Below are positions 1 to 18,335 of a stretch of DNA of 45,454 bases, piece by piece. The notes under the pieces are model-generated. The model made no database searches, was not told the DNA's origin, and worked only from the letters and a program-made list of their open reading frames with translations. The stretch covers positions 1 through 45,454 of the forward strand of contig CANKUB010000026.1 in the NCBI GenBank assembly GCA_947486575.1, written 5' to 3'. The translations under genes and the position numbers were made by a program. Every line of letters starts with the position of its first letter. Position 1 is the stretch's first letter. The stretch is from Betaproteobacteria bacterium (lineage in GTDB: Bacteria; Pseudomonadota; Gammaproteobacteria; Burkholderiales; SG8-41).

Positions 1-483
1 CAGGTGCGCGCGCGGCGCAAGGTGGCTGGAGGTGGACGCCTGATCACCAAAACCAAACGGCTTGCCGCGGATGTCAGCCAGGGTTTTCACCGGCCCGCCA
101 GCGGTGGCTATCAGTATAGAGTTATAAGTGGGCGAGCCGCGCTCAACACCCACAGCGAACGGCTCGATCTCCGGTGCGCGCGACTTAGCGAGCACATACG
201 AAAAGGGACCGAAGTAGGCCACTTCGATGCGGCCAAAGCGCATCGCTTCGATCATCGACGAGTAATCGGTGGTGACAATGATCTCGATGTTTTTCTTCAG
301 CGTTTGTTCAAGATAAGTTTTCAGCGGCTGCGCGTTCTGGATCAGCGTGGCCGCATTTTCGTCGGGCAAAAGCGCCACACGCAGCGTTGCCGGGTCGCGG
401 CCCTGCGCTAGCGTAGGCACCCAGGGTGCCCATGACGCCCAAATCAGTGGGGCGGTTAGTAATATTCTGCGTTTCATGTTCAT
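1..483 (-). CDS. phnD: Phosphonate/phosphite ABC transporter substrate-binding protein, PhnD type 1 (C-terminal part beyond window)
   Basis: The minus frame is open from an ATG at 483 to the window edge, giving about 161 residues of the N-terminal part. A basic start and hydrophobic stretch ending in a small-residue cleavage region (about residues 1-26) look like a signal peptide, so the product should be periplasmic. Motifs typical of PhnD-like binding proteins follow: [38 protein letters not shown] and [11 protein letters not shown]. The AYFGPFSY form differs from the AWHGNKS form in the second PhnD at 10665-11645, so ligand specificity may differ (aminoalkylphosphonate, phosphite or similar). 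The start overlaps the phnC1 stop in ATGA, with GGAG seven bases upstream. The partner permease phnE is expected to lie to the left of the window. Confidence 0.88.
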
Positions 484-1373
484 GTCAGGACTCCAGCGCG
501 TTGCAACGTGGACAGAGAAGACCAAGCGGGTAATTCATCAAAGGAAGCTACGGTGCTGGCGGCGCTCCCGTACAGTTCGTTCGCTTGCCTGACGGTCAAT
601 TCGCCAGGCGTGCCGTCGAACGTTATCGCGCCATTTTTCAGACCGATGATGCGGTCAGCAAAGCGTCGGGCAAAATCGACCTGATGCAAGCTCACCACAG
701 CGGTCAGCCCGTCGCTTTTGCAGATGCTGTGTATCAGCCTCAACAGATGTTCAGCCGTCGCCGGATCCAGGCTCGCCACCGGTTCATCGGCCAGCAGCAT
801 GCGCGGTGCCTGCACCAACGCGCGCGCCACGCCCACACGTTGTTGCTGACCGCCGGACAACTGATCGGCGCGCTGCAAAGCCCGATCCAGCAAGCCCACA
901 CGCTCAATGGCCGCGAGCGCCAGCTCCTTTTCATGGCGCGACCAGGGCGCCAGCGTGGCCCAACTGCTGTGATAGCCCAGCCGCCCCATCAGTACGTTGT
1001 GCAGCACACTCTGCCGCCCGATCAGATGATGCTGCTGAAACACCATGCCCGTCTGCCGGCGCTGACGTCGCAGCGCACCGCGCCCGGCCAGATCGCCAAT
1101 GCCTTCGGCAAACACGCTGCCGGCCGTGGGCCTCACCAACCCATTCAGCGTACGCAACAACGTCGATTTACCGGCGCCGGATGCACCCAGCAACACCACA
1201 AAGGTGCCTTGGGCTATGGTCAGTGAAGTGCGCTTGAGCGCTTGAATGTGAACGCCACCCACCGCGTAAGTGACTTCAAGATTTCGGGTGTGAATAGCTG
1301 CGGCGGCAGCTTTGCGCGCACTGCCACCAACGTGAACAATGTCATTGGATGGGATTGGATCCGCATGGATCAT
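480..1373 (-). CDS. phnC: Phosphonate ABC transporter ATP-binding protein, copy 1
   Basis: This is the ATPase subunit of an inner-membrane phosphonate importer. It has Walker [10 protein letters not shown], a Q-loop in VFQQHHL, the signature [15 protein letters not shown], Walker B MLLADEP followed by ASLDP, and the H-loop region VSLHQVDFA, all in the PhnC-specific form. I chose ATG 1373 because AGGAG lies seven bases upstream; the open frame extends 13 codons further without such support. It has an N-terminal tail of about 35 residues before the ABC core and a C-terminal tail after the usual end. It is translationally coupled to phnD1. A 96-bp gap separates it from phnM, and that gap holds a candidate PhoB-type promoter, so it may be transcribed separately from the C-P lyase genes as well as by read-through. 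Confidence 0.93.
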
Positions 1374-1386
1374 ACTTGTGCTCCTG

Positions 1387-1409
1387 ATTGTAGCGCCGTC
1401 CGTTGACAG
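1387..1409 (-). promoter_or_regulatory. Candidate PhoB half-site and -10 for phnC1
   Basis: On the minus strand CTGTCAA (1403-1409) is followed after exactly 10 nt by TACAAT (1387-1392), a five-of-six match to the -10 consensus. This is the spacing known for PhoB-activated promoters. The heptamer one turn upstream does not match, so only one half-site is clear. Confidence 0.45.
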
Positions 1410-1469
1410 CAACGGGCGCCAGCGGACATCGATCCCGAAGCGGGTGACGGCCTTCCGCGCACAGTGGGT

Positions 1470-16121: not shown

Positions 16122-17020
16122 TGAGTTTGCGCACACGCATTCAAGCATTGCTTGGGCAGGAAGACCTGAACTTTCTGCTCACCAACCGCCTGCCCCGCAA
16201 TGCGCTGACGCGGTTCATGGGGTGGTTCAGCAAGATCGAGCAACCGTTGGTACGCGACGCGTCGATTGCGGTATGGCGATTTTTTTCCGGGTTGGATGTG
16301 AGCGAAGCGCGCAAGTCTCACTTCACAAGTCTGCACGATTGCTTTATTCGCGAGCTGAAGGACGGGCTGCGGCCGGTGGCAAATGATCCGGCAGTACTGT
16401 CCAGCCCGTGCGACGGCATCGTCGGTGCGCACGGGCCGATTGACGGCACACGCGTGTTTCAAGCCAAGGGTTTCCCCTACACGCTGGAAGATTTGCTGGG
16501 TGACGACGCAAATGGCATCAATGACAACGAATGGCGCGACGGCTACTTTGTGACGCTGCGGCTGACATCCAGCATGTACCATCGCTTTCACGCGCCACAG
16601 GACTTGTTTGTGGAACAACTGACGTATTTTTCCGGCGACACCTGGAACGTGAATCCGATTGCGCTGCGGCGCGTCGAGAAGTTGTTCTGTAAAAACGAAC
16701 GGGCGTTCATTAAAACGCGGATCACCGGAAGCGGACCTTGCGCGGGCAAGCTGATTGCGCTGGTGCCCGTGGCGGCGATACTGGTGGCGAGTATTCGCCT
16801 GCATTTTCTGGATGTGCTGCTGCACCTGAAATACGCCGGGCCACGCCGCATCGCGTGCAACGCGGCGTTCAGCAAGGGGCAAGAAATGGGCTGGTTTCAG
16901 CACGGCTCGACCATCATCGTGCTTGCCCCCAAGGGCTTTGTGTTGTGCGACAGCTTGCGCGAAGGAGCGGTCATGCGTATGGGGCAGGCCCTCATGCGCT
17001 GGAATGCCTCGGTTAATTGA
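16121..17020 (+). CDS. psd: Phosphatidylserine decarboxylase, second copy (long type)
   Basis: The 299-residue protein has the three elements of pyruvoyl-dependent phosphatidylserine decarboxylases. These are the aspartate in SSPCDGIVG (D98), histidines in YHRFHAP (H154, H157) and the self-cleavage site HGSTIIVLAPKGF (S263), where chain cleavage creates the pyruvoyl group. It should convert phosphatidylserine, or a related seryl-lipid, to the ethanolamine form at the membrane. A housekeeping short-type psd is present at 30612, so this copy is redundant and probably specialised. ATG 16121 is chosen; a TTG two codons upstream is possible. No Shine-Dalgarno is visible, and an AT-rich element fills the leader. 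It overlaps the convergent glycosyltransferase by 8 nt at the tails. Confidence 0.9.
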   Translation: MSLRTRIQALLGQEDLNFLLTNRLPRNALTRFMGWFSKIEQPLVRDASIAVWRFFSGLDVSEARKSHFTSLHDCFIRELKDGLRPVANDPAVLSSPCDGIVGAHGPIDGTRVFQAKGFPYTLEDLLGDDANGINDNEWRDGYFVTLRLTSSMYHRFHAPQDLFVEQLTYFSGDTWNVNPIALRRVEKLFCKNERAFIKTRITGSGPCAGKLIALVPVAAILVASIRLHFLDVLLHLKYAGPRRIACNAAFSKGQEMGWFQHGSTIIVLAPKGFVLCDSLREGAVMRMGQALMRWNASVN

Positions 17021-18272
17021 ACGGACCCGGTTGCGTGGCACGCACCGCTGCCGGCTGGAGGCGAAACTCGGCACTGAGCTGACTGTCGTGGCGCTCCATC
17101 ACACTTCGCAGGGTCGTGATAAAACTATCCGCTACGGCCATCCAGCTCATGTGGGCCACACTGGACGGCGCTTCCTGCCGTAGCGCCAACCGTTTCTCGC
17201 TGTCTACAGCGAGGGCTACAGCCGCATTTATGAAATCGACTTCCTCGCCGGGCTGCACCAGTGCGCCATTGCGGCCATCCGTAATCAGATTCGCCGCTGC
17301 CGCGACGCCATAAGACAACACAGCGAGCCCGCTGGCAAGCGCCTCCGGCACCACGTTGCCGAAGGTGTCGGTTAGGCTCGGAAACAGAAACATATCGCTC
17401 GATGCATAGTGCGCCGCCAGTTCACTGCCAGTTCTTATGCCGGTAAACAGAGCCTGCGGGCAGGCTTCCTGCAGCGATTTGCGCAATGGGCCGTCGCCGA
17501 CGAATACCAGTTTGGCCGCAGGTAAACGCGCCTGAATCGCGGCAAATGCGCTCAACACAACGCTGACGTTTTTTTCCTTGGCGAGCCGCCCCACATGCAG
17601 CACCACCACATCGGTGTCAGTGGCACCCCAGTTTGCACGCAATGCCGTAGAGCGCATTGCCGGGGTGAACTGTTCAATAGCCACGCCGCGCGAAAGCACC
17701 GACACATTGCGATAACCATGGCGTACCAACATGCGTGCAACGTCCTGCGTCGGCACCAGCGTTGCCAGCGTACGGTTGTGCAGCTTTTTCAGGTAGGCCT
17801 TAATCGGCACCTTCAACAAGCCCATGCCATAGTGCCGCGAATATTGATGAAAGTTGGTGTGGAAAGAGCTGATCACTGGCAGCTGCAATTTGCGCGCAGC
17901 GGTCACCGCAGACCAACCCAGAGGCCCTTCGGTCGCCACATGCACAATATCGGGGCGCTTTTGCCGCCATAGCTGGATCAGCCTGTTTTCGGACAACAGA
18001 CCGAAGCGCAGGTCAGGATAATTCGGTATCGGTATGCCTTTGGCCAGCACTTCGTCGAATCCCGCCCGCTGTGCCTGCGATTCTTCGCGTGCCTGACGTG
18101 GCCGCACGATTTGCGCGGCGTGCCCTCGCGCCAGCAAGCCCTTGACCAGGTTTCCGAGCGTCATGGCAACGCCATTGACTTCAGGTGGAAACGTCTCCGT
18201 AACGAGCGCGAGACGCAGTCTGGCAGGGTGCGCCGTGAACGACTCAACGATGATCTCTTCCGCAGTTTTCAC
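17013..18272 (-). CDS. Family 4 glycosyltransferase, diacylglycerol glycosyltransferase-like
   Basis: The 419-residue protein has a GT-B fold pattern. The N-terminal acceptor domain starts at LALVTETFPPEVNGVAMTLGNLVKGL, then comes PDIVHVATEGPLGWSA. The donor domain has LHVGRLAKEKNV, FVGDGPLR and FPSLTDTFGNVVPEALASG, the D/E-x7-E nucleotide-sugar motif. The N-terminal pattern is shared by SqdX, MgtA and related lipid glycosyltransferases. Next to PlcP and behind a PhoB-type promoter, a role in making phosphorus-free glycolipids from diacylglycerol fits well, but sugar donor and product cannot be read from sequence. GTG 18272 is the apparent start with a short leader; no good Shine-Dalgarno is visible. 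Confidence 0.85.
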   Translation of the reverse strand: MKTAEEIIVESFTAHPARLRLALVTETFPPEVNGVAMTLGNLVKGLLARGHAAQIVRPRQAREESQAQRAGFDEVLAKGIPIPNYPDLRFGLLSENRLIQLWRQKRPDIVHVATEGPLGWSAVTAARKLQLPVISSFHTNFHQYSRHYGMGLLKVPIKAYLKKLHNRTLATLVPTQDVARMLVRHGYRNVSVLSRGVAIEQFTPAMRSTALRANWGATDTDVVVLHVGRLAKEKNVSVVLSAFAAIQARLPAAKLVFVGDGPLRKSLQEACPQALFTGIRTGSELAAHYASSDMFLFPSLTDTFGNVVPEALASGLAVLSYGVAAAANLITDGRNGALVQPGEEVDFINAAVALAVDSEKRLALRQEAPSSVAHMSWMAVADSFITTLRSVMERHDSQLSAEFRLQPAAVRATQPGPFN

Positions 18273-18290
18273 GCATCAAAGCATAAGCTG

Positions 18291-18335
18291 CAAATACAGC
18301 AAAATGATGAAGGTTTTTTTACTGTTGTGCGACAG
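18291..18335 (-). promoter_or_regulatory. PhoB-type promoter of the glycosyltransferase gene
   Basis: On the minus strand CTGTCGC (18329-18335), CAGTAAA (18318-18324) and CCTTCAT (18307-18313) are in 11-nt register. TATTTG (18291-18296) follows after exactly 10 nt. The last two heptamers with their spacer match the corresponding 18 bp of the phnC2 box at 16 of 18 positions. Confidence 0.66.

Follow-up and report, generated by a model that had tools for sequence, protein, structure and literature searches.

A conserved psd2-AT3-mpo1 gene trio beside plcP and phosphonate genes as a candidate amine-lipid branch of phosphate-starvation lipid remodelling

The studied sequence is the 45,454-nt contig CANKUB010000026.1 (contig C26) of a Betaproteobacteria bacterium (assembly GCA_947486575.1; 5.35 Mb, 98% complete), which was analyzed at its full length and is referred to below as the window. 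Its phosphonate region (positions 1-12576) is followed by a group of lipid genes (12689-18272) encoding a PlcP-like metallophosphoesterase, an Mpo1-like membrane protein, a class III aminotransferase (AT3), a second enzyme of the phosphatidylserine decarboxylase (Psd) type termed Psd2, and a GT4 glycosyltransferase. The psd2-AT3-mpo1 trio is conserved across proteobacterial loci, and its upstream regions are enriched in Pho-box-like sites. We propose, with moderate confidence, that plcP-mpo1-AT3-psd2-GT4 is a Pho-regulon lipid-replacement module in which the trio would make a lipid with an amine head group, probably a surrogate of phosphatidylethanolamine (PE).

For bacteria short of phosphate, replacing phospholipids is a main strategy, of which PlcP/Agt glycolipids, betaine lipids, and ornithine lipids, the routes described so far, are perhaps only a part; the conservation of the trio points to a further lipid class. 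If this is true, it changes what the annotation of a second "psd" or of a "glutamate-1-semialdehyde aminotransferase-like" gene means. The novelty apparently lies in the trio and not in the junction of phn and plcP genes: in the open-access literature (subscription papers and supplements being outside the scope) we noticed no description of the psd2-AT3-mpo1 set.

Conservation of the trio

A contig scan matched 299 stretches, and 295 of them code for AT3 relatives when the threshold is set to E ≤ 1e-3, which possibly includes other class III aminotransferases. The best 80 of these 295 stretches, all with at least 64% identity in the best segment, were used together with 12 further stretches from relatives; because the best 80 were taken, the set is biased to close relatives. 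The 92 loci were mapped with the window proteins, and six of them (L024, L026, L027, L028, L031, and L080) were dropped as copies, leaving 86 loci.

On the strand opposite to AT3 and within 1.5 kb of it, a psd gene is located in 84 of the 86 loci and an mpo1 gene in 81, and a GT4 gene (at least 40% identity) lies on the AT3 strand within 4 kb in 64 loci. Both loci without psd (L102 and L106) are on contigs that start less than 300 bases from AT3. The mpo1 gene is absent from L075 and L091 and lies more than 1.5 kb away in L049, L053, and L063. Whole-stretch counts are 84 for psd, 84 for mpo1, and 76 for GT4, of which 12 GT4 proteins are distant (<40% identity). Displaced or second mpo1 homologues, 53-57% identical, were observed at L049:18530-19123, L053:13197-13796, L038:14644-15228, and L067:4558-5142, which suggests a paralogue family.

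Among the other neighbours, the lysophospholipid transporter LplT (named by NCBIfam) was found near the cassette in 39/86 loci by neighbour clustering and in 40/86 by the whole-stretch count, followed by Ugd (24/86 stretches), PlcP (19/86), OlsB-like and PmtA-like proteins (13/86 each), and PPK2 (13/86). Clustering also yielded an OmpR-type response regulator (17 loci), PhoR (10), PhoU (10), and PstA (10), and at least one of the phoB-like, phoR, phoU, and pstA genes occurs in 22/86 stretches. Strictly called phn importer genes are present in 6/86 loci and C-P lyase, phnN, or DUF1045 genes in 4/86, the two sets together covering 8/86 loci; beyond the strict rule, L043 carries phnD-phnE, and pieces of phnC are seen in L036 and L042.

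From these locus counts, the conserved unit is the psd2-AT3-mpo1 trio, usually with GT4, and phn genes are occasional neighbours. The initial annotation had viewed the phn and plcP genes as one unit that saves phosphorus and imports it, which is not borne out by their frequencies or by the alternating orientations of the genes; since the genes alternate, the region is not one transcript. What it proposed for the lipid genes, a module for phosphate starvation that has an additional branch, perhaps for an aminolipid, is supported, as the trio often stands beside plcP, OlsB-like, pst/pho, or phn genes, with Pho-like sites enriched (see below). Nor is the neighbourhood confined to a single genome, since the loci with the trio are titled as alpha-, beta-, and gammaproteobacteria. 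Where phn genes do adjoin the cassette, as in the window and a few loci such as Limnohabitans L079 and Rhodocyclaceae L059, AT3 and Psd2 might be thought to act in phosphonate metabolism, transaminating and decarboxylating a phosphonate amino acid. Since the strict rule places phn genes close to the cassette in just 8 of 86 loci, vs. 81 for mpo1 and 64 for GT4, this role was rejected as highly improbable.

By record title, the carriers include cultured Rhodoferax, Limnohabitans, Rubrivivax, Variovorax, and Bradyrhizobium; the nearest named relatives by AT3 are mostly betaproteobacterial metagenome-assembled genomes. In Limnohabitans L079, phn genes, the cassette, lplT, ugd, phoR, a PhoB-like regulator gene, phoU, and pst lie on one stretch, and the map of L080 is nearly the same. 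The record titles of L036, L037, L071, L080, and L100 (Bordetella parapertussis, Akkermansia muciniphila, Solirubrobacterales) look odd for their content. On a plasmid of Sphingomonas parapaucimobilis (L116; NZ_CP155753.1, 13057-28044), a psd2-AT3-mpo1-PmtA-like set is located ~1.2 kb from a sphingolipid-like cluster, in which N-acetyltransferase, desaturase, lptFG, class I/II aminotransferase, and acyl carrier protein genes were read. A sphingolipid role, to which this locus and the likeness to Mpo1 had pointed, was set aside: the L116 genes from the N-acetyltransferase through the cerR-like gene are unmatched in the 92 other loci (pmt being matched in 14), and the genome of the window gives only a 32% match to the Spt-like protein.

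Association across genomes

In a sample of 250 genomes of the order, where AT3 was called at E ≤ 1e-100 and PlcP at E ≤ 1e-40, AT3 is encoded by 28 genomes. Each of these 28 genomes has exactly two Psds, vs. 13 of the 222 genomes without AT3, and in all 28 the second Psd adjoins AT3 (coordinates compared by eye). PlcP was found in 26 of the 28 AT3 genomes vs. 99 of the 222 others, and in 17 of these 26 it is located on the same contig as AT3, at most 12 kb apart. The Fisher P values of the AT3 associations, 9e-7 (PlcP) and 2e-27, take related genomes as independent, which they are not, and the counts in this and the following sample are uncorrected for kinship. Across the phylum, 25 of 398 sampled genomes encode AT3 (E ≤ 1e-60), and they belong to several families both inside and outside the class of the window.

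The genome of the window follows the same pattern. Its sole Psd other than that of the cassette is of the short type (30612..31253, minus strand; PF02666) and has neighbours that we take to be ilvC-like and pssA-like genes; the cassette gene is therefore an additional copy, psd2.

Predicted functions of the encoded enzymes

The psd2 gene (16115..17020, plus strand; PF02666, 178.6 bits) has a TTG start of its open reading frame, with an ATG two codons on. An overlapping long frame on the minus strand (16070-17074, 334 aa) matches no family in Pfam or NCBIfam. The second Psd named by the initial annotation is the plus-strand gene; the minus-strand frame and another antisense to AT3 (14434-16065, plus strand, 543 aa) are likely by-products of codon use. 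In the alignment, Psd2 keeps D100, H159, and G264-S265-T266, corresponding to the Asp, His, and Gly-Ser-Thr whose roles are known from E. coli Psd. With 19 of the 20 long Psds compared, it shares 23-34% identity; the twentieth, L159 from genome G098, is 54% identical and groups with Psd2. Four changes near the catalytic motifs are fixed, namely L to H before GST, Y to R at 149, D to M at 154, and S to N at 178, in a residue comparison that left out L035, L159, L160, and the short Psd. That the 29 cassette Psd rows form one clade is not rejected (approximately unbiased test, 0.68), which is no proof of it. By its sequence, Psd2 is thus a separate Psd subfamily with the catalytic residues kept, and the fixed changes leave phosphatidylserine as a candidate substrate only.

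These properties bear on the main rival explanation, lipid turnover, in which Psd2 would be a Pho-induced isoenzyme that only supplies PE to PlcP, AT3 would salvage nitrogen or a head-group fragment, and PE would keep cycling. The retained catalytic residues, the linkage of psd2 to plcP, the frequent neighbour LplT (39/86), and the methylation of PE by PmtA-like enzymes in other bacteria all agree with such a cycle. However, another Psd is present in every AT3 genome of the order sample, Psd2 is remote from nearly all of the long Psds compared and carries its fixed changes around the catalytic motifs, and producing more PE only for PlcP to break it down would amount to a futile cycle. We consider turnover unlikely, although it deserves more weight than any other alternative discussed here.

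The AT3 gene (14419..16077, minus strand) encodes a protein with the class III fold of pyridoxal phosphate (PLP)-dependent aminotransferases, judged by its PF00202 score (107.8 bits) and its fold match to 6kfm. This structure, the AMT domain of the MycA protein of mycosubtilin synthase, is the nearest solved relative both by sequence (E 9.4e-49) and by fold (Foldseek TMt 0.82). Residue K366, which we take from the motif to be the PLP lysine, is invariant in 36 AT3 members. The initial annotation had called this aminotransferase anchored. Hydropathy gives no transmembrane segment in AT3, although its structure model has an N-terminal helix at 4-33, with a predicted local distance difference test (pLDDT) score below 50 for residues 1-8. 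A HemL (tetrapyrrole) role was rejected, as AT3 is apart from the HemL-like-labelled rows in a 16-row tree.

MycA aminates a fatty acid at its beta position (PMC4219810). As the AMT domain is the best match of AT3 in both comparisons, AT3 might likewise make beta-amino fatty acids for an N-acylated or lipopeptide-like membrane lipid. This would leave Psd2 unexplained, and neither a ketosynthase nor an acyl carrier protein nor a peptide synthetase is found among the recurrent neighbour clusters that were named, a part of all clusters having been scanned; we hold this explanation to be quite improbable.

The third trio member (13805..14404, plus strand) is a DUF962-like membrane protein whose PF06127 score of 19.9 bits misses the cut-off of 24, and the name is therefore kept to "Mpo1-like". 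His, Asp, and Glu residues are invariant in its 40 aligned members, the structure model is mostly helical (pLDDT 89.5), and phmmer found no match in PDB. In 13 loci, mostly titled as alphaproteobacterial, a methyltransferase gene lies beside mpo1; for the one of these 13 proteins that was scanned, PmtA is the nearest family, with a score of 147.7 bits that stays below the cut-off (390).

Upstream of mpo1, the plcP-like gene (12689..13654, plus strand) encodes a calcineurin-type metallophosphoesterase (PF00149, 46.3 bits) that scores below the LpxH cut-offs; the only other match to it in the genome is weak and located on contig C81. Its name, PlcP, is a putative one presumed from context. The GT4 gene (17013..18272, minus strand; PF13439/PF13692) encodes the motifs GRLAKEKN and FPSLTDTFG, of the Agt/GTcp type, which are largely kept in 76 aligned rows; the donor motifs described for the Pelagibacter GT4 protein are GRVAXEKN and FPSXTDTFG (PMC8231724), so that one V is changed to L. 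The two genes are not adjacent, with mpo1, AT3, and psd2 intervening on both strands.

That GT4 is the commonest extra partner (64/86), and that Ugd, which provides UDP-glucuronate, is a neighbour in 24 stretches, would suit a pathway in which AT3 and its partners modify the glycolipid itself; an amino-glycolipid would arise, for instance, if they aminated a uronate or oxidised sugar carried by diacylglycerol. Some class III enzymes do aminate sugars, including a C-6' aminotransferase among the weak AT3 matches. But the closest relatives of AT3 are the MycA AMT domain and HemL, not sugar aminotransferases, and the alpha-amino acid that Psd2 needs would not obviously come from a sugar. In addition, five of the 13 PmtA-like loci have no GT4 match in the stretch and the other eight have only matches of 29-36% identity. 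Such an amino-glycolipid appears improbable.

Pho-box-like sites

Pho-box-like sites were scored with a consensus of the E. coli type and a simple weighting scheme (maximum 24). Positions 1-18335 of the window contain four sites scoring at least 19.5; in 200 Markov resamples, the mean number of such sites was 0.6 and always less than four were obtained. Three of the four sites precede phnC and mpo1, and the fourth, at 7255, is located within the 5' portion of the phnG reading frame. The site before phnC (12565..12593, minus strand) consists of three 7-base units with an 11-base period (scores 20.5 and 19, ranking first and fifth among the sites listed); the stretch 12510-12688 has a best score of 20.5 (P 0.001), and the same gap trimmed at 12577, within the site, has 17.0 (P 0.12). 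The sites before mpo1 (13694..13745, plus strand) score 19.5, 17, and 19.5, with a P value of 0.009 for the gap. Thus, candidate sites are found on both the phosphonate and the lipid half of the region, as had been reported by the initial annotation. Before GT4, a weak site (18318..18335, minus strand) scores 16.5 (P 0.085).

Across the loci, a site scoring at least 18 near the gene start was observed for 67.5% of 83 mpo1 and 73.7% of 76 GT4 genes, compared with 8.4% each in shuffled sequences, as well as for 31.8% of 85 AT3 genes (shuffles 6.4%) and 32.1% of 84 psd genes (shuffles 5.0%). The same threshold was reached by 5 of 10 plcP upstream regions. These rates are not independent, since divergent genes share gaps: mpo1 and GT4 use one divergent gap in 37 loci, and AT3 and psd share theirs. 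In six Bradyrhizobium loci, an almost perfect site recurs 27-33 bases upstream of the AT3 start as aligned.

PHP-like-GT4 protein in divergent loci

Seven divergent genomes have, directly after AT3 and in the same orientation, a gene for a PHP-like protein, mostly fused to a C-terminal GT4 domain. Such genes are located at L163:5608-8484, L167:2344-5025, and L168:10350-13175, and also within loci L169-L175; the protein has 893-958 residues in the three loci read whole. Its N-terminal motif strings resemble those of PHP phosphoesterases. Pfam gives no PHP match to this part even at E 10, and one chance-level match of another kind. All six PHP-like strings are kept in 7/7 proteins and FPSxFDTFG in 6/7, the L174 frame being short (462 residues). 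The N-terminal part occurs in 7 of the 398 genomes, each time directly beside AT3, and the gene after mpo1 encodes OlsF in L168 and a UDP-sugar dehydrogenase in L167. The PHP-like-GT4 protein is possibly a one-piece stand-in for PlcP and Agt.

Proposed pathway

By analogy to PlcP/Agt, PlcP would split a phospholipid to diacylglycerol, to which GT4 would add glucose or glucuronate. AT3, Psd2, and the Mpo1-like protein would act in one hypothetical pathway leading to a membrane lipid with a primary-amine head group that replaces PE. In this pathway, AT3 would put an amino group on a lipid- or acyl-linked carbonyl, Psd2, a predicted pyruvoyl-type enzyme with an altered pocket, would decarboxylate an alpha-amino-acid head group, and the Mpo1-like protein, possibly metal-dependent, would modify the chain or the head. 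In the alphaproteobacterial loci, the PmtA-like methyltransferase encoded beside mpo1 may N-methylate the product. All of these enzymatic steps, as well as the control by the Pho system, we infer from sequence.

An amine head-group lipid is the most likely product of the trio because both an amino group and a decarboxylation are needed. Ornithine and betaine lipids are phosphorus-free aminolipids made under phosphate limitation. At E ≤ 0.001, the genome of the window (98% complete) has no match to PF13444 (OlsB) and none to PF11899 (BtaA), and the amine lipid could therefore take the place of these lipids. More broadly, the trio could be the core of an undescribed amine lipid of phosphate starvation in alpha-, beta-, and gammaproteobacteria, methylated by a PmtA-like enzyme in some of them and coupled to glycolipid synthesis by either PlcP and GT4 or the PHP-like-GT4 protein. 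We advance this wider claim tentatively, as one that stands somewhat short of an even chance.

A number of observations weigh against the proposed module. With respect to regulation, the best score in the AT3-psd gap of the window is 11.5, i.e., it contains no Pho-like site, and GT4 is preceded by a weak site only. At the threshold of 18, sites are also more frequent before the remaining genes of these loci than in the corresponding shuffles (12.3% of 522 vs. 3.1%), and the Pho signal thus belongs in part to the whole neighbourhood. Gene content is likewise uneven: 41 of the 86 loci have none of the listed phosphorus genes nearby (many of these contigs being short), PlcP is not within 12 kb of AT3 in 9 of the 26 genomes encoding both, some of the pairs being on separate contigs, and the AT3 genomes G167 and G179 lack a PlcP match. 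In genome G098 (L161, 6738-9854), psd2, mpo1, and GT4 lie by phoU/pst with no AT3 match, which represents either a natural loss of AT3 or an earlier state, and L163, L167, and L168 differ in arrangement, with all genes on one strand. As for the enzymes, the nearest solved relative of AT3 has as its target the fatty-acyl chain of a lipopeptide being synthesised and not a head group, and the sub-threshold PF06127 score of the Mpo1-like protein is accompanied by a Foldseek result in which none of the 149 matches at E ≤ 10 reached E ≤ 0.001.

Phosphonate genes and other features of the window

The gene types named by the initial annotation all lie where it placed them, with some caveats. A family-profile scan found the whole C-P lyase set phnGHIJKLM as open frames, with PhnG-M and PhnN over curated cut-offs. 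On the minus strand are phnM (1470..2600; NF011984 524.7 bits, cut-off 260; TIGR02318 457.5, cut-off 390.55), phnL (2597..3295; TIGR02324 325.4, cut-off 256.3), phnK (3316..4161; TIGR02323 379.9, cut-off 302.85), the C-P lyase core gene phnJ (4097..4972; PF06007 505.7 bits), phnI (4969..6264; PF05861 542.4 bits), phnH (6074..6670; PF05845 209.8 bits), and phnG (6670..7347; PF06754 158.6 bits; TIGR03293 160.8, cut-off 89). The frame starts of phnK and phnI overlap phnJ and phnH, respectively, and the true starts are probably later; the coordinates of phnG are given from the frame start, with the domain beginning at residue 57. They are followed on the plus strand by the gene for the DUF1045 phosphonate-operon protein (7348..8226; PF06299 165.2, cut-off 24.3; TIGR03223 248.4, just under 248.95) and the ribose 1,5-bisphosphokinase gene phnN (8156..8827; TIGR02322 178.1, cut-off 156).

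Two phosphonate importers had been described, one of which is complete: phnE (9838..10650; TIGR01097 297.7, cut-off 216.7), phnD (10665..11645; TIGR03431 340.2, cut-off 261.1), and phnC (11677..12576; TIGR02315 286.1, cut-off 266.1), together spanning 9838-12576 on the minus strand. The match of PhnC begins at residue 25 of a frame with a TTG start, and its true start is probably later. Of the second importer, the contig end retains only the minus-strand ATPase gene phnC2 (480..1412; TIGR02315 289.1, cut-off 266.1) and the open frame of a PhnD-type N-terminal part, phnD2 (1..477), cut at the end and named by position and sequence appearance. The PhnZ-like HD-domain phosphonate oxygenase (9277..9825, minus strand) passes TIGR03276 (227.9, cut-off 214.6). 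The enzyme called PhnO-like (8774..9280, minus strand) is a GNAT acetyltransferase (PF00583, 56.3 bits) with a weak PhnO match (35.1 bits, cut-off 142), and the protein called Mpo1-like is present, as described above, under its Pfam cut-off. A PhyH-family (phytanoyl-CoA dioxygenase-like) gene is located upstream of GT4 (18371-19684, minus strand); it was rejected as a cassette member, having 0 matches in the 86 loci and no NCBIfam match.

Comparison with known systems

AT3 resembles the MycA AMT domain in sequence and fold, and differs from it in being a free-standing protein of ~550 residues with an extra N-terminal region and a lipid gene context, and not a domain of a polyketide synthase/nonribosomal peptide synthetase. 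Psd2 shares PF02666, the catalytic Asp and His, and the Gly-Ser-Thr cleavage site with the canonical long Psds, from which its subfamily is set apart by the four fixed changes. The Mpo1-like protein aligns with yeast Mpo1, a 2-hydroxy-palmitate dioxygenase (PF06127), over an N-terminal segment with conserved histidines, while scoring below the family cut-off. The ornithine-lipid enzyme OlsF has been described (PMC5193443). The cassette touches on the OlsB/OlsF systems through the 13 stretches with an OlsB-like gene and through OlsF beside mpo1 in L168, whereas the genome of the window matches neither OlsB nor BtaA.

The closest known system is PlcP/Agt (Phaeobacter MED193, Pelagibacter, Methylosinus), whose lipid remodelling has been established (PMC4796936; PMC9239053; PMC8231724). 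The plcP contexts in PMC4796936 include btaAB, agt, and pgt-type neighbours, and its main text contains no mention of an aminotransferase. In common with this system, the window encodes a putative PlcP, a metallophosphoesterase apparently distinct from LpxH, and a GT4 protein with Agt-type motifs, and there are candidate Pho-box-like sites and a recurrent genomic linkage; the difference is that here plcP is separated from GT4 by mpo1, AT3, and psd2.

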